Shown here: positions 56,812 to 63,500 of the stretch, piece by piece
Numbering within the stretch: the first letter of the stretch is position 1
How the letters are laid out: each line of letters begins with the position of its first letter
Source of the DNA: Micrococcaceae bacterium Sec5.1
Lineage (GTDB): Bacteria > Actinomycetota > Actinomycetes > Actinomycetales > Micrococcaceae
Reading direction: 5' to 3'
DNA length: 64,000 nucleotides
NCBI GenBank assembly: GCA_039636795.1
Contig: CP143430.1
Coordinates: forward strand, 3,968,001 to 4,032,000
Program-made: the position numbers and the translations under genes
Notes under the pieces: generated by a model
Seen by the model: the letters and a program-made list of their open reading frames with translations, nothing else
The model's database searches: none
Told to the model about the DNA's origin: nothing

Positions 56812-57639
56812 TTACGGGATGGGGACAGGCACGACGCCGAGCGGCGCCAACTTCTCCGCGCCTCCGTCCGGGGCAGACAAGACCCAGATGCCCTTTTCGT
56901 GCACAGCCACGGAGTGCTCCCACTGGCAGGAGCGCTTGCCGTCGGTGGTGACAACGGTCCAGTCGTCGTCCAAGGTGGCAGTCTCGATGCCACCGCGCAC
57001 CAACATGGGTTCGATCGCGAGGCACAGCCCCGGGCGGATCTTCGGGCCGCGGTGATTGGTGCGGTAATTCAGGACGTCCGGGGCCATGTGCATTTCCGAA
57101 CCGATGCCGTGGCCCACGTAATCCTCCAGGATGCCCAGCGGCTTACCGGGGACGGAAGAAACGTAGTCATCAATGGCGTTGCCGATATCGCCCACGAACT
57201 TGCCCTTGGCCAGCGCAGCAATCCCTCGCCACATGGCGGCCTCGGTGACATCCGAGAGCCGCTGGTCCTCAGGGTCTGCCGTGCCAACGATGACAGTGCG
57301 GGCGGAGTCCGAGTGCCATCCGTCAACGATGCAGCCGCCGTCGATGGAAATAATGTCACCATCGTGGAGGACGCGCTTTCCGGGGATGCCGTGGACGACT
57401 TCCTCGTTGACGGACGTGCAGATGGTGGCGGGGAAGCCGTGGTAACCAAGGAAGTTGGACTTAGCGCCGGCGTCATTCAGGACGGCAGCAAATACCTCGT
57501 CGAGGTCCTTGGTGGTGACGCCTGCCTTGGCCGCCGCAACGGCAGCGTCAAGGGCACGGCTGAGGACCAAACCGGCCTCGTGCATCTTGCGCATTTGCTC
57601 GTTGGTTTTGTACTCGATGCGGGGCTGACCGAACGCCAT
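56812..57639 (-). CDS. map: Methionine aminopeptidase, type I
   Basis: A 275-residue metalloprotease that removes initiator methionine. All five metal ligands can be placed: Asp and Asp in DIISIDGGCIVDGWHSDSA, His in YVGHGIGSEMH, Glu in CLAIEPMLV and Glu in QWEHSVAVHEKG. Start at 57639 with AGAGGAGAAC upstream; the frame extending to 57999 is inside the neighbouring gene. 32 bases after the OleD-like gene. Confidence 0.97.
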   Translation of the reverse strand: MAFGQPRIEYKTNEQMRKMHEAGLVLSRALDAAVAAAKAGVTTKDLDEVFAAVLNDAGAKSNFLGYHGFPATICTSVNEEVVHGIPGKRVLHDGDIISIDGGCIVDGWHSDSARTVIVGTADPEDQRLSDVTEAAMWRGIAALAKGKFVGDIGNAIDDYVSSVPGKPLGILEDYVGHGIGSEMHMAPDVLNYRTNHRGPKIRPGLCLAIEPMLVRGGIETATLDDDWTVVTTDGKRSCQWEHSVAVHEKGIWVLSAPDGGAEKLAPLGVVPVPIP

Positions 57640-57671: not shown

Positions 57672-58583
57672 TCAGGCCCCGTGCTCCAACCATTTTCCCG
57701 CATCGGAGAGCGTGGTCGAAATTGGTTCGATTCCCAGCTCGTCGCGGAGTCGGTCCAAACGGTAAGTTCTGTCCCGTCCGAGCTGGCTGACCGCATAGCG
57801 CGTGAGGCGTGGTGCCCGTCCGGAAACGAGGGCAGCGGCTTCGGAAATACCGGCAAGAACCATGGCAGCGGGCTCGGGGACGTACCTGATGCCGACTCCG
57901 GCATGGCCAGTGACAGCAAGCACCTGCCTGAGCACGGTCCCGAGCTCCACAGGCTCCGCGTCCGCCACGTTGATAGCCCCGCGGGCATCGGACTGGCAAG
58001 CTGCCAGCGCTGCCTTTGTCAGGTTGTCCACGTGCGTGAGTTGATGACGAATACCGGCATGGCCAACGGTGAGAAGCCGTCCGTGGCGGACATTGCTGAT
58101 CAGGCGCGGCAGCAGCGTCCGGTCCCCCGGTCCGTAAACTCCGTGGGGCCGAAGAACCACGGCATTGCGATGCCGTCGGGTCTCCACGTCGGCGAGCGCT
58201 TTACTCCTTGCGTAGGCGTTGAGGTGGCGCACAGCCACGTCTTCTTCGCCGCGGTTGGTGCAGGGCTCCCACCACGGGTAGACGCTGGAACTGGAAATGT
58301 GCACCAGTCGTGTTGTTGCATAGGCCTCAGCGACGGCACGGGTTCCCAGCACATTCGTTCGGTGGAACGTCCGGGCGTCGCCCCAGTCCGCCACATGGGC
58401 GGCTGCGTGGATCACGGCGTCCACACCCGGTACACGGGCAGATGGTACGCCGGTCAGATCCCAATACGTCAGCCCGGGGCCTTGGCGCCGTGCGAAACGA
58501 ACAACTTCCCAGCCTTGGGCCTCAGCGGCGGCGGCGACTGCTCCCCCAATGAAGCCTGTTGCCCCGGTAACCGCGATTTTCAC
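57672..58583 (-). CDS. NAD(P)-dependent epimerase/dehydratase, OleD/3beta-HSD-like reductase
   Basis: A 303-residue extended short-chain dehydrogenase. The N-terminal nucleotide motif is VTGATGFIGGAVAAAAE and the catalytic pair is YARSK (Tyr-x3-Lys) near residue 128, with the Ser in SSSSVYP near residue 98. It starts with GTG inside the ligase stop (GTGA). In olefin and beta-lactone pathways OleD reduces the 2-alkyl-3-ketoacid made by OleA. That assignment here is an inference from the neighbours plus family resemblance; a sugar or sterol-type reductase cannot be excluded. Confidence 0.75.
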   Translation of the reverse strand: MKIAVTGATGFIGGAVAAAAEAQGWEVVRFARRQGPGLTYWDLTGVPSARVPGVDAVIHAAAHVADWGDARTFHRTNVLGTRAVAEAYATTRLVHISSSSVYPWWEPCTNRGEEDVAVRHLNAYARSKALADVETRRHRNAVVLRPHGVYGPGDRTLLPRLISNVRHGRLLTVGHAGIRHQLTHVDNLTKAALAACQSDARGAINVADAEPVELGTVLRQVLAVTGHAGVGIRYVPEPAAMVLAGISEAAALVSGRAPRLTRYAVSQLGRDRTYRLDRLRDELGIEPISTTLSDAGKWLEHGA

Positions 58584-60340
58584 CGTGCGCCGGCTTTGTC
58601 AGCGGACATGCGGGCAAATTCGCATCGAAGTGCTTCCCGATCCGGCTTTTTGTGGCGTCCGCTGTGGGGGATGGCATCCAGGATTTCGATGTGATTGGGG
58701 AGAGCGGATTCGTCAATCATCGCCGGGAGGACCTTGGTTAGCTTTGCTTTCAGCTGCCTCCCCAGTGTCTCTGACAGCCCCTGCGCAGGCACGACCGCCA
58801 GCCACACAGCTTCATCACCGATCCCGTCCGGAACCCCCACCATCACGGCCTGCTGAACTCCGGGCACAGAAGCGATCAGCGGCTCATACAGTGCAGGGTA
58901 GATGTTGGTCTTGCCCCGGATGATCATGTCCTTCTTACGCCCAATCATCACCAATCGTGCGGGACCCGTTCCGGGGCCTCCCGCGCCGTGGTCCAGCCGC
59001 ACCAGGTCTCCGGTGGCGTGTTCAATCATGGCTTCCTCGCCCAGATATCCGTGGCACATGTTCGCTCCGCGGGCGTACAGTTCGTGGTCCTCCCCCACCC
59101 GGATCCCGACGGCGGGTAGCGGCTCTCCGAGGAAATCGCCTTCGCCGCTCCCATCCGGCGACGTGAATTCGGCTTCAGCGCCGGATGCAAAGGCCAGCTT
59201 CTCCCTACCATCAGCGACGGCGATTGGCAGCAACTCCGTCATACCGTAGATGAGTTTGAACTCGACGCCGGGAAGCAGCGCCGTTGCCCGTTTCAGGAAC
59301 GGAGCCAGAACCGGCGCGGCTCCAAGCATCACGGTCCGCAGTGTTCCGGGGAGCCTGACGCTGCCGTCCTCGACCGCATCCAGGATGGGCGCCAACTGGG
59401 ACGGCACGAGGAAAAGGTGCGTCGCGCCGTCGTACGAGTCTTCTTTGCCAGCCACCGGCCCAAGCTCGCGTGCCAAGCGAAGAGGATCAATGTGCGCGGA
59501 GAAGCCATAGCCGGGCATGGTCCAGTGCGCGCCGGCGATGAGTGCCGGCAAGCCCATCATCAGCTGCTCGGAGTGGATGCGATCGCCCTCGCCAAACGTA
59601 CAGCGCTGGTTGAGCTGCTCGAATCCTGCCCCGAGCGAACCTCGTGTATGTACTACGCCCTTGGGCGCACCGGTGGTCCCGGACGTAAAAATAATCACGG
59701 CTTCCTGACTGGAGGAAGCCCCTGTAGAAGGCGCAACTCTATCTCTAAGAAGCGCCGTACTGGCCAGTCGCTTCACCGGCGTCGCGCCTCGAGGTACGCC
59801 GGGGAGCCACGGTCCGGAGTAGTAGTGCCGGACGTCCATGGCACCGTAATCCGGCAGCAGCAATCCCCTCCGCCGGGCCAGTGGCCGTAGCGGGCTCTTG
59901 GTACTCACCCCGTAGAGGAGAGACTCGGCGGCCGCCCACCGAGGGGCAGCCAGCCTGGCCCGGTCATGGAAAAGCGACGGTCCGATTCCTGGATCGATGA
60001 ACACCACAGAACCACCGGCCCGGACGGCCCCCAGGGCCAGGATGAACGCTGCCGGGCTGGGGCGGACCGAGAACAGCATCCGTTCACCGGCACCGAAGCC
60101 ATCATCCTGGAGATGCCGGGCAGTGGCATCTATACCTTTCACCAGTTCGCGGTATGTGATGGTCCGTCCTGGTCGCAGTCGGTCTGAACGTCGTAGTCGC
60201 CCTGGAGCATGGTTCCAGGGAGAAAATCTGCCGGGCGCCGTGATTGCCGGGCTCTCAGGCACGCGTTCCGCTGCCGCGTAGACCGCCTCGATGAGATCCG
60301 TGCCGGACACGGTATCTTCCAACAATGCGTCACCAAGCAT
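58580..60340 (-). CDS. AMP-forming acyl synthetase, OleC-like
   Basis: A 586-residue ANL-superfamily enzyme. The P-loop is FTSGTTGAPKGVVHTRGS near residue 230. Then come YGMTELLP, the hinge region IGRKKDMIIRGKTNIYP, and a C-terminal RHKKPDREAL in place of the usual PxxxxGK lysine motif. A C-terminal arrangement of the RHxxK type is what I recall of OleC beta-lactone synthetases, so OleC is favoured over a fatty-acyl-CoA ligase, with moderate confidence. The start at 60340 overlaps the P450 stop by 11 bases; a longer frame to 60649 lies inside the P450 gene. Confidence 0.8.
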   Translation of the reverse strand: MLGDALLEDTVSGTDLIEAVYAAAERVPESPAITAPGRFSPWNHAPGRLRRSDRLRPGRTITYRELVKGIDATARHLQDDGFGAGERMLFSVRPSPAAFILALGAVRAGGSVVFIDPGIGPSLFHDRARLAAPRWAAAESLLYGVSTKSPLRPLARRRGLLLPDYGAMDVRHYYSGPWLPGVPRGATPVKRLASTALLRDRVAPSTGASSSQEAVIIFTSGTTGAPKGVVHTRGSLGAGFEQLNQRCTFGEGDRIHSEQLMMGLPALIAGAHWTMPGYGFSAHIDPLRLARELGPVAGKEDSYDGATHLFLVPSQLAPILDAVEDGSVRLPGTLRTVMLGAAPVLAPFLKRATALLPGVEFKLIYGMTELLPIAVADGREKLAFASGAEAEFTSPDGSGEGDFLGEPLPAVGIRVGEDHELYARGANMCHGYLGEEAMIEHATGDLVRLDHGAGGPGTGPARLVMIGRKKDMIIRGKTNIYPALYEPLIASVPGVQQAVMVGVPDGIGDEAVWLAVVPAQGLSETLGRQLKAKLTKVLPAMIDESALPNHIEILDAIPHSGRHKKPDREALRCEFARMSADKAGAR

Positions 60341-61631
60341 TGACCAACTCCAACTTCCTGTACGCCGGAATGAGCACACCCTTGCTAACTCGACGTGACG
60401 AGATGACCCACGGATGGTGGGCGTACATGTCCAGAAGCAAAGACAGCGTGGCGTTGATCTCGGCCATGGCCAACGGCATGCCGATGCAAAAGTGCGGACC
60501 CGCGCCGAACCAAAGCTGACGCGCATGGGGCGGGGTGGGAATCCCAGGTTCGAATCCGCCCAGGCTTTTAGACGCGTGAACAGTCGACAGCAAAAGACGA
60601 TCTCCGGCGCGGATAGCGACTCCGCCAAGGGTGCCAGGAGAAACAGCATCCCTCAGCATCATCGGGGACGGCACGGTGAACCGTAATGCCTCGTTCACGG
60701 CCGAGGCAACACCGGACCGATCCTCAACGAGGCCCGCAATGCGTCCGCTGTCAGCGAGCAGGGCAATCAGCCGTGGAACAAAGGACACCAACGTCTCTGT
60801 TCCCACCATCACGAACGCGCTGATGATGCCCATGGCTTCTTCCTCGGTCATGCCGAGTCCGCGCAGCCGCCCTGGAAACGTTTGGGGATCGCCCTTCCGG
60901 TACGCTTCCCTCGCCGGTCCAGCCAGGACCCCGACGGCGGATCTTCCCTTGGCGACCTGCCTCACCGTCAACGTGGGGCGCCCCAGGCGAACGAGCGAAG
61001 AGATGGAAGACCCCAGATTGAAGAGTTCCCTGTTGGGCAACCGGCCAGGTGCATCATCCGGCACGCCCAGCAGCTTGGAGATGACTCCCCCAGCAAGCTC
61101 CTTAACGCAGTCCACCAGGTCCACGTGGCCACCTGCGTCCAATCCGTGGTGTAGGCGATCATGAAGCGAAGCAGCGGCCGGCTCAACGATTGTCGCCACC
61201 GAGCCTGGAGTGAAGAGGTCCCCGAGCTTCCGCCGCAGCTCCCTGTGCTCGGTGCCGTCCATGTTCACCAACGCCTTTGGTCCCACTACGGGAGTCCAGA
61301 GCGCACCCGAACCGGACGGTCCGTTCTTGATGAATCGTTGGCTATCCATGAGAACGTCACGCACCAAGGCGGCTTCGCTGACGAGGATCCCCAGGCCGGG
61401 CAAACGCATCACCGGCCGCAGGCTCCCCAGCCCCCGGATCGCCGGGTACAGCAATGGATGCGCCCCCAGCTGAACGCGCTGTTCCCAGCGTTCGGCCTTG
61501 CTGATGACGCCGCCGGGCATCCTGCCGCTAGGCATCTTGCCGCTAGGCATGCTGCCGTTGGGCATCCCTCCGTTGGATATCAAAGCGTCACCGAATGTCC
61601 ACGTGCTCTGGGCGGTACCGGTGGTCCGCAT
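60330..61631 (-). CDS. Cytochrome P450
   Basis: A 433-residue haem monooxygenase. The haem-binding loop is FGAGPHFCIG with Cys382. The ExxR pair is Glu314 and Arg317 (NEALR), and the I-helix is VMVGTETLV near residue 275. It is soluble-type, without a membrane anchor. Residues 20-41 are a low-complexity stretch of (S/N)GxMP repeats encoded by four 15-bp units. Its start is uncertain: the ATG at 61631 lies 44 bases inside the preceding gene, and later Met codons in the repeat are candidates. No ferredoxin is nearby. Confidence 0.88.
   Translation of the reverse strand: MRTTGTAQSTWTFGDALISNGGMPNGSMPSGKMPSGRMPGGVISKAERWEQRVQLGAHPLLYPAIRGLGSLRPVMRLPGLGILVSEAALVRDVLMDSQRFIKNGPSGSGALWTPVVGPKALVNMDGTEHRELRRKLGDLFTPGSVATIVEPAAASLHDRLHHGLDAGGHVDLVDCVKELAGGVISKLLGVPDDAPGRLPNRELFNLGSSISSLVRLGRPTLTVRQVAKGRSAVGVLAGPAREAYRKGDPQTFPGRLRGLGMTEEEAMGIISAFVMVGTETLVSFVPRLIALLADSGRIAGLVEDRSGVASAVNEALRFTVPSPMMLRDAVSPGTLGGVAIRAGDRLLLSTVHASKSLGGFEPGIPTPPHARQLWFGAGPHFCIGMPLAMAEINATLSLLLDMYAHHPWVISSRRVSKGVLIPAYRKLELVNAW
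61516..61575. repeat. 15-bp tandem repeat, four copies, in the P450 gene
   Basis: Units ggcatcctgccgcta, ggcatcttgccgcta, ggcatgctgccgttg and ggcatccctccgttg follow each other exactly. They encode (S/N)-G-x-M-P repeats near the P450 N-terminus. Confidence 0.9.
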
Positions 61632-62376
61632 ACCAAGCCAGGGTGTTCTTCAAGCCCCAGGCTTTGACCCGCCGTGAGGAGCCGTAAACCACAACATCCC
61701 GGCGCGACGCGTAATTGCGGGTCAGCTTTCGCACGCGGTTGGACAGTGCGCGGTCTTCGTGGAGGTCTTCGATGCTGGTCCGCGGGAATCCGCCGGAACG
61801 GTCATACATGTCTGCCGTGATCGCCATATTGCATCCCGGAAGCATCTGATAAGGGCCGAGGTACCCGTCACCCTTATTGCCGGGGCGGATCCGGCCGAAG
61901 AAAGATGCGATCTCGACGGCGAGCAACATCATCCTCCGCTCCCCAGTACTGATCCCTTCGTCCTCGCGGGGCACAAGCTGGCCGGCGATGAGTTCCAGAC
62001 CGTCGTGGAATGCCTGAACAATTTTGGCGGTCCAATCCGGCGCAGCGAGACAATCGGCATCCGTCCGGGCGAGCCACGTTGCGCCGTGCTCCAAGCCGAA
62101 GCGCATGCCCGTGTCTGCGGCCACGCCCGTCCCCTTCTCGGCTTCATGCACAAGCCTGATATCCATGTGGGGATGAGCCGCGGCAAACTCTGCCACGATC
62201 GAACAGCTGGCGTCCGTCGATCCGTTATCGACCACCACCACCGTGAAGTCCTGATGTTCCTGGGCCGCAAGAGAGTCCAGCGTCTGCCGGACCAGCTTCT
62301 CTTCGTTCAGCATGGGCACAGCGATGGACAGCGGCCGGGTAGGGGGCGTGCTTCCCAGATGGCCTTCCAGCATCAC
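61588..62376 (-). CDS. Family 2 glycosyltransferase
   Basis: A 262-residue GT-A fold enzyme without membrane helices. The nucleotide-sugar site is VDNGSTDAS near residue 50, and the metal-binding DxD is Asp106-Ala-Asp108 (RTDADC). A conserved acidic region (SIEDLHEDRALSNR) serves as the ED-type acceptor motif. It begins within the ketosynthase stop (ATGA) and ends inside the P450 start. A GT2 enzyme inside a ketosynthase/P450/ligase operon suggests a glycosylated product, or a different acyl-glycan role. Confidence 0.85.
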   Translation of the reverse strand: MMLEGHLGSTPPTRPLSIAVPMLNEEKLVRQTLDSLAAQEHQDFTVVVVDNGSTDASCSIVAEFAAAHPHMDIRLVHEAEKGTGVAADTGMRFGLEHGATWLARTDADCLAAPDWTAKIVQAFHDGLELIAGQLVPREDEGISTGERRMMLLAVEIASFFGRIRPGNKGDGYLGPYQMLPGCNMAITADMYDRSGGFPRTSIEDLHEDRALSNRVRKLTRNYASRRDVVVYGSSRRVKAWGLKNTLAWYADHRYRPEHVDIR

Positions 62377-63428
62377 AGCCGCACCACCGCCATGCCCAGG
62401 CTCACGCCGCCCGCGAGTCCCACCAAGGCCACAAGATCTCCCGGACCACAGCGGCCACTGTCCACGGCAAGTTTCAGTTGCAGGGGCAAGCTAACGGAGG
62501 CCAAGTTTCCGAAGTCCTCTACCGATGGAACCAGAAGCTCCCTCGGAACACCGGCCCGCTCCGCAAAGACTTCCCGGTACGGTGCACTCACCTGATGCAC
62601 ACAAACCACGGCAAAGTCCGTCCACTGCAATTCCAGCCGGTCCAATGTTTCGTCCAGGACGCCGCAGCCCAGATCCAGAAATGCGTCCTTGAGCTTCTCC
62701 CCGTCCATGGTGAAATAGGTCGCTTCCGGATCGCGCGGATACGCAGATCCACCTGCAGCCAAGGTGCCGACCGACCAGTGGCTGCTGCGGGCTGTGAAGC
62801 CCATGCCAAGAATGCCTCCCGGACCGACCTCCAGTCGGTTCGTCTCCATTGCCGCTGAATCCGCAGGTTCGAGCAACACCGCCGCGCCGCCGTCGCTCAT
62901 GGTGTACCCGGGAAAGCTTGACGCGAAAGTGTCAAAGTCCGGAACTCTCCAGCGGATGGCCCGCGACGGCGACTCCCCTGTGACCACCAGGACCCTGACA
63001 TACCGGCCCGTGGCAATCAGGGCATCGCCCACCTCCAAGCCGTTCAGGAAACTGTTGCACGCATTCTTCACGTCCATCACAGGGCAGGCGAGTCCGAGCT
63101 TGGCGGCCGCCATGTGGCCCGTGGCCGGTTCCACCATGTCCTGGCTGGCGGACGCGAAGATCAGGAGGTCTATATCCGAGGGCTGCAGTCCGCATTCAGC
63201 CAGCAGCTTTGCGGCTGCATGGGCCGCAAGGTCCGACGCCTGTTCCGAGTCCGCCATGACGCTCCGGGACCGGATACCGGTAACGCGGGAGATCAAGCCC
63301 TTCGGGACACGGAACCCCGGACTCGACTCACCAATACGGCGTTCGACGGCGGCAGTGTCCAGGCGCGCAGGCGGAAGGTAGACCTCCAAACCTGCAATCC
63401 TGCTGTGCCCGGAAAGAGCTGTTTGCAT
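62373..63428 (-). CDS. 3-oxoacyl-ACP synthase III / OleA-like thiolase
   Basis: A 351-residue thiolase-fold condensing enzyme. The catalytic triad is complete: Cys124 (NACNSF), His278 (CVHQVS) and Asn308 (FGNLAS). The sequence opens SRIAGLEVYLPPARL, typical of FabH and OleA. Whether it uses acyl-CoA plus malonyl-ACP (FabH) or joins two acyl chains (OleA) cannot be told by eye; the OleC- and OleD-like neighbours favour the second. Start at 63428 with GGGGGAA upstream; the frame beyond it runs into the adk terminator. Confidence 0.85.
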   Translation of the reverse strand: MQTALSGHSRIAGLEVYLPPARLDTAAVERRIGESSPGFRVPKGLISRVTGIRSRSVMADSEQASDLAAHAAAKLLAECGLQPSDIDLLIFASASQDMVEPATGHMAAAKLGLACPVMDVKNACNSFLNGLEVGDALIATGRYVRVLVVTGESPSRAIRWRVPDFDTFASSFPGYTMSDGGAAVLLEPADSAAMETNRLEVGPGGILGMGFTARSSHWSVGTLAAGGSAYPRDPEATYFTMDGEKLKDAFLDLGCGVLDETLDRLELQWTDFAVVCVHQVSAPYREVFAERAGVPRELLVPSVEDFGNLASVSLPLQLKLAVDSGRCGPGDLVALVGLAGGVSLGMAVVRL

Positions 63429-63457: not shown

Positions 63458-63500
63458 AAAAGGGTGTGTCCCGCACCAATGGTACGGGACACACCCTTTT
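63458..63500 (-). terminator. Terminator of adk
   Basis: AAAAGGGTGTGTCCCG and CGGGACACACCCTTTT form a perfect 16-bp inverted repeat with an 11-base loop. It lies between adk and the five-gene cluster, so the cluster is insulated from adk transcription and probably has its own promoter in the short region between 63428 and 63458 or reads through. Confidence 0.92.

Follow-up and report, generated by a model that had tools for sequence, protein, structure and literature searches.

A conserved five-gene actinobacterial operon that may direct synthesis of an oxidised, glycosylated Ole-type lipid

One way to understand a row of five minus-strand genes in Micrococcaceae bacterium Sec5.1 is to read it as an operon for an oxidised, glycosylated lipid of the Ole type. 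The genes lie near the end of the 64,000-nucleotide stretch analysed here (contig CP143430.1; hereafter 'the window') and encode, in order, a condensing enzyme (ketosynthase, KS), a family 2 glycosyltransferase (GT2), a cytochrome P450 (P450), an adenylating enzyme of the ANL superfamily (ANL) and an extended short-chain dehydrogenase/reductase (SDR). By sequence comparison this is a conserved, chemically interpretable predicted operon, common to many actinobacteria; the product assignment, which draws on sequence, phylogeny, gene order and predicted fold, has in our estimate about an even chance of being right (probability near 0.5). In the pathway proposed, the KS would join two fatty acyl-coenzyme A (CoA) molecules head to head, by non-decarboxylative Claisen condensation, into a 2-alkyl-3-ketoacid, as its OleA signature residues and phylogeny suggest; the SDR, by its relationship to OleD, would reduce the ketone to give a 3-hydroxy acid; the P450 would hydroxylate an alkyl chain and the GT2 would then glycosylate that hydroxyl, a coupling that a natural GT2-P450 fusion supports; and the ANL would convert the carboxylate to an acyl-AMP, as expected of its family, and go on to an OleC-like beta-lactone closure. 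As there is no OleB, the beta-lactone would persist. The headline idea is already in print for one likely relative, Actinoplanes atraurantiacus (see below). New as far as the literature was searched are the breadth of the distribution, an Asn-Ala-Cys-Asn (NACN) motif that defines the clade, an inverse relation between the cluster and canonical OleA, a second P450 near many of the loci, and the GT2-P450 fusion together with reduced versions of the cluster.

The homologue set consists of the best 80 of 144 loci that encode a relative of the KS, in a collection with one genome per species. At 67 of the 80 the order is KS-GT2-P450-ANL-SDR, all on one strand; the other 13 read KS-GT2-P450-ANL (6), KS-GT2 (2), KS-GT2-P450-SDR (2), KS-GT2-P450 (1), SDR-KS-P450 (1) and KS-P450 (1). 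Six of these 13 lie at or near a contig end (L028, L037, L049, L069, L079 and L081; right flanks of 615-3895 bases); at L043, L055 and L067 no SDR match at E <= 1e-5 was found within 9 kb; at L035 the ANL is on the opposite strand; the other three are L076 and the Herbiconiux loci L063 and L064, described below. Genera with the cluster include Arthrobacter, Paenarthrobacter, Saccharopolyspora, Lentzea, Pseudonocardia, Streptomyces, Cellulosimicrobium, Promicromonospora, Salinibacterium and Nonomuraea. At E <= 1e-60 the family KS is found in 32 of 394 sampled genomes of the class, Sec5.1 included, and in 13 of 137 genera, a count of KS matches alone (identities down to 41%) and not of neighbourhoods. 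The preliminary description of this DNA, made from the window alone, had placed the cluster between adk and map and proposed a search for the neighbourhood across Micrococcaceae: both genes flank it at all 16 Micrococcaceae loci, and neither was found in the stretches examined for the other 64. The adk-map setting is therefore lineage-specific; the five-gene unit is not. In Cellulosimicrobium (L042), for example, the cluster sits among two ilvD-like genes and a gene for a thiamine pyrophosphate enzyme.

Two loci stand apart. In Promicromonospora kroppenstedtii (L076, 1-5700) the cluster retains P450 and SDR only as fragments and the ANL is missing; the locus is possibly decayed or misassembled. 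In Antribacter gilvus (L038, 10148-13285) exporter genes of the FtsX/ABC/MacB type lie between KS and GT2, a hint of product export.

In fold and in its Cys-His-Asn triad the family KS is like 3-ketoacyl-acyl carrier protein synthase III (KAS III, FabH); the triad first described as Cys124, His278 and Asn308 is present in the alignment, together with Glu100. FabH differs at two positions. The Glu that OleA contributes from the partner subunit, which the preliminary description had suggested looking for (E117 in X. campestris; here E100, followed by P101), is present in 90/90 family KS rows and 43/43 OleA rows, and the Glu before Pro is found in 0/20 FabH rows; the Asn two residues ahead of the catalytic Cys (here Asn122) is likewise shared with OleA and occurs in 0/20 FabH rows. 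All 90 family rows carry the OleA-specific Glu-Pro and Asn-Ala-Cys residues. The family motif reads DxxNACN, where OleA has NACL, and the OleA pattern EPxx[AS]x(14,18)DxxNACL, as printed in PMC7158056, matches every one of the 43 canonical OleA rows, none of the 20 FabH rows and none of the 90 family rows. Surveys built on the pattern would overlook the family, because no member examined matches it, even though the family is widespread in actinobacteria. The window's KS scores 159 bits against NCBIfam PRK09258, under the curated cut-off of 285, as compared with 465 bits for one canonical Micrococcaceae OleA. In a tree the family groups with OleA and not with FabH (support 97/98), and the approximately unbiased (AU) test of a family + FabH grouping gives a p-AU of 0.030; this tree took in 31 of the 90 family rows, and it has long branches and one outgroup row. 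That row came from the single candidate outgroup locus, among four, with a usable open reading frame (ORF), which is like a type III polyketide synthase by our reading of its sequence and not by a family search. An earlier three-group tree was dropped in its favour; it says nothing on the nearest neighbour, because three clades have one unrooted shape. Signature residues, tree and AU test, with the long-branch caveats given, support an OleA-type rather than a FabH-type KS.

The other two Ole-like assignments of the preliminary description also held. For the SDR, OleD models score best (117 bits with NF042422, and 106; the next non-OleD model, HpnA, gives 80); its score is under the OleD cut-off of 580, and so is that of one canonical Micrococcaceae OleD, at 276. 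An SDR tree was set aside: its 'other' set included 47 family SDRs and only two true outsiders, both on very long branches. For the ANL, the tree rows were 25 of the 91 ORFs whose best query was the ANL of the window (P0004). These form one clade with 20 OleC domains, to the exclusion of 10 other ANLs taken from the Sec5.1 genome and related ones (support 100/96, under a warning of long branches), and in trees built without each other the family ANLs and OleC each fall outside the nine remaining ANLs. The residues TE-x-L/V-P after the A5 motif occur in 25/25 family ANLs, 17/20 OleC and 0/10 other ANLs, OleC features being taken from the alignment of this analysis alone. A placement of the ligase with fatty-acyl-CoA ligases was not obtained, and common descent with OleC is favoured by these sequences.

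A single ORF combines GT2 and P450 in G064 and G040, the two cluster-bearing genomes found in g10, a different genus of the same family (Table 1); such a fusion suggests that the two act in succession on one intermediate. The predicted structure of the GT2 is partly confident (pLDDT 69.5), and the folds nearest to this model, GT-A enzymes with PcManGT first, fix neither donor nor acceptor. A reading of the window's P450 (P0003) as a 'P450-derived glycosyltransferase activator' was rejected: the model match is weak, at 45 bits against a cut-off of 343, and the haem Cys is present. At 34 of the 80 loci (L042, L059 and L019 among them) a second P450 lies near the cluster on the opposite strand, 31-36% identical to P0003 with at least 140 bits. 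Three of these, drawn from different families, share 52-56% identity with one another, so that the second P450 is probably a recurrent partner of the cluster; within the window P0003 is their sole match. It was not seen near the 16 Micrococcaceae loci of the 80.

The weakest step of the proposed pathway is the beta-lactone closure by the ANL, and several observations weigh against it. The hinge/A8 region reads GRxxDMxxR...YP in 25/25 family ANLs and 8/10 other ANLs; OleC, represented by proteins of the same bacterial family, has GRxxH in 20/20 rows and this CoA-ligase-type form in 0/20. Two genomes (G129, G026) encode KS-P450-SDR with neither GT2 nor ANL in a 15-kb stretch, and no family-type ANL was found in the genomes of G129, G026 and G144 (best match 73 bits). 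At L139 (2317-4599) and L140 (1947-4307), where ANL and GT2 are absent, a protein with ATP-grasp and Acetyltransf_6 domains (761 and 787 aa) is encoded directly upstream of the KS, tentatively a swapped carboxyl-activating module. Because the family ANL has a CoA-ligase-type hinge, which OleC lacks, beta-lactone closure can only be proposed, and it has a serious rival in a carboxyl-conjugated, mycolate-like lipid. Both schemes have the KS and SDR steps in common; here they would yield a 2-alkyl-3-hydroxy acid, a short mycolic acid skeleton, for the P450 to oxidise. The ANL, its hinge taking the usual two conformations, would serve as a CoA- or AMP-ligase and hand the acyl group on to a different acceptor, the GT2 would add a sugar, and no lactone would form. 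The long-chain acyl-CoA ligase model PRK06187 gives the ANL 118 bits, not far from the 131 of PRK09274, the best model for canonical OleBC. However, both the phylogeny of the ANL and its A5 motif favour OleC, a beta-lactone synthetase could retain an ancestral hinge, and the ATP-grasp neighbour, with a putative role, is found in two loci of one genus; the carboxyl-conjugated lipid seems to us possible and somewhat unlikely. Were it the product, it would widen the range of Ole enzyme chemistry; a glycosylated beta-lactone, if that is the product, would add a new type to a class of compounds relevant to drugs.

Two further schemes appear less probable. The KS might act as a KAS III and, with malonyl units, prime a small product of fatty or polyketide type, the ANL being an ordinary acyl ligase: FabH-type models come close to PRK09258 in score, the best sequence match among solved structures is a FabH (4ryb), and Foldseek E-values put FabH first. 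Yet OleA has the same Glu100 and Asn122, which 20/20 FabH rows lack, the AU test rejects family + FabH, and the ANL and SDR are ole-related too, all of which makes such a starter condensation improbable. Alternatively the P450 might replace OleB, converting the 3-hydroxy acid to an alkene or ketone by oxidative decarboxylation or cleavage, with ANL and GT2 on a side branch. The four clusters found without ANL and GT2 (L139, L140 and the Herbiconiux loci L063 and L064, where the stretch gave no match to either) do keep a family-type P450 beside the KS, with an SDR nearby that in both Herbiconiux loci is a weak match (76-85 bits); the GT2-P450 fusion points instead to hydroxylation followed by glycosylation, and we regard replacement of OleB as very unlikely. 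A broader and rather speculative picture would make the NACN clade a separate Ole branch: its KS-P450-SDR core would produce a hydroxylated, mycolate-like 2-alkyl-3-hydroxy acid, which interchangeable modules (ANL and GT2 here, ATP-grasp/GNAT elsewhere) would conjugate to a glycolipid or amide, and in Micrococcaceae this would replace the oleABCD membrane hydrocarbon and not be an added secondary metabolite.

The cluster differs from the canonical oleA-oleBC-oleD of Micrococcaceae in having no OleB domain, an extra P450 and GT2, NACN in place of NACL, and a CoA-ligase-type ANL hinge; identity to the canonical proteins is 23-28% for the KS (20/20 loci), 23-28% for the ANL (19/20) and 26-34% for the SDR (20/20), over most or part of the length. 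By domain search none of the five genes is OleB. The lack of OleB, and the question of an oleB-like hydrolase elsewhere, both raised by the preliminary description, were followed through the Sec5.1 genome: no match to residues 1-318 of OleBC was found at E <= 0.001, in a search without a positive control, and no OleA over the family cut-off was found. Among 206 genomes of the genus, 117 have canonical OleA over the cut-off, 33 the family KS and five both; canonical OleA is thus present in 5/33 genomes with the family KS as against 112/173 without (Fisher p = 1.4e-7, relatedness ignored). For the bacterial family, sampled through 245 genomes, the corresponding counts are 201, 9 and one (p = 4.8e-6, relatedness again ignored). 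The co-occurrence counts are of OleA alone; oleBC and oleD were seen in 20 fetched loci. The five genomes with both KS types are all at 83-85% KS identity and may be one lineage, and 61 of the 173 cluster-free genomes of the genus have neither type. The scarcity of canonical OleA in genomes with the cluster makes a substitution hypothesis directly testable through the lipids of sister species. An apparent OleBC-OleD fusion at L123 was rejected, as the two occupy different frames.

Smith et al. (2020; PMC7064751) describe a region of A. atraurantiacus that encodes OleA, a glycosyltransferase, OleC, a P450 and OleD, with OleB missing; hydroxylation, glycosylation and beta-lactone closure are proposed, and its OleA was active in a p-nitrophenyl hexanoate screen. 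As there described, that region agrees with the present cluster in its five domain types and its inferred product, and its genome has no oleB candidate; it is one genome, compared by published description and not by sequence or gene order. The combination with GT2 and P450, which the preliminary description did not know from elsewhere, is thus printed there, and the same set of genes recurs across many genera of actinobacteria; the idea of a lactone kept, oxidised and glycosylated is plausible and not new, the same product being predicted in that paper. The same source gives the lipstatin and nocardiolactone clusters as using OleA/C/D-like enzymes without OleB to make a beta-lactone (PMC7064751). 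These resemble the present cluster in being of OleA/C/D type without OleB, a comparison made by description only. To our knowledge, neither has a P450/GT2 pair of this kind. The KS of a Dactylosporangium homologue (P0124) is NACN-type, and we take this genus to belong to the same family as Actinoplanes; a protein search from that homologue gave no protein named from A. atraurantiacus among the best 120 of 1628. No further paper was recognised as treating this cluster in the open literature, subscription journals being mostly outside the search.

Table 1. Features of the cluster in the window, and GT2-P450 fusion ORFs at two other loci
Feature	Position	Strand	Remarks
KS, OleA-type condensing enzyme by sequence (P0001)	62373..63428	-	351 aa; E100-P101, N122-A123-C124-N125, H278, N308
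GT2, family 2 glycosyltransferase	61588..62376	-	262 aa; GT-A fold core, D106-x-D108
P450 (P0003)	60330..61631	-	433 aa; haem loop intact (C382), E314-x-x-R317, E279-T280; start codon uncertain
ANL-superfamily adenylating enzyme (P0004)	58580..60340	-	586 aa; OleC-related, CoA-ligase-type hinge/A8 motif
Extended SDR	57672..58583	-	303 aa; best family match OleD (2-alkyl-3-oxoalkanoate reductase); GxxGxxG, Y124-x3-K128
15-base tandem repeat	61509..61567	-	encodes MPxGx units at P450 N-terminus
16-base inverted repeat, adk/KS gap	63458..63500	-	arms 63485-63500 and 63458-63473, loop 11, TTTT end
GT2-P450 fusion ORF	L137 1916-4144
GT2-P450 fusion ORF	L138 3670-6651

The five ORFs are intact at the positions first described (Table 1), and so is the P450 haem loop; in order their Pfam matches are ACP_syn_III, Glycos_transf_2, p450, AMP-binding with AMP-binding_C, and Epimerase. 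The flanking ORFs are indeed adenylate kinase (from 63540 up, truncated where the window stops) and type I methionyl aminopeptidase (56812-57639). Two of the gene overlaps reported earlier need amendment. The KS/GT2 junction reads GTGATG and not ATGA, so that the overlap is GTGA with a GTG start or one base with an ATG start. The 44-base overlap of GT2 and P450 hinges on the first ATG of the P450 gene, and both are uncertain, because the 15-base repeat carries four further in-frame ATGs (codons 23, 28, 33 and 38) and conservation in the alignment sets in near residue 50; the true start may lie further downstream, with no such overlap. The P450 N-terminus is possibly length-variable through this repeat.

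The inverted repeat between adk and the KS gene may be the terminator of adk; the five-gene operon would then need its own promoter. A consensus scan found no promoter-like site; a terminator scan found three terminator-like sites, below the shuffled mean of 4.1, with a loop limit shorter than the 11-base loop of this repeat. Comparison with L006 gives dN/dS of 0.05-0.12 for all five genes, and comparison with L012 gives 0.05-0.15 for four, the GT2 not being computable and the values rough (dS > 2). The catalytic residues listed in Table 1 are at least 97% conserved in the P450 (78 rows), the GT2 (79) and the SDR (69).

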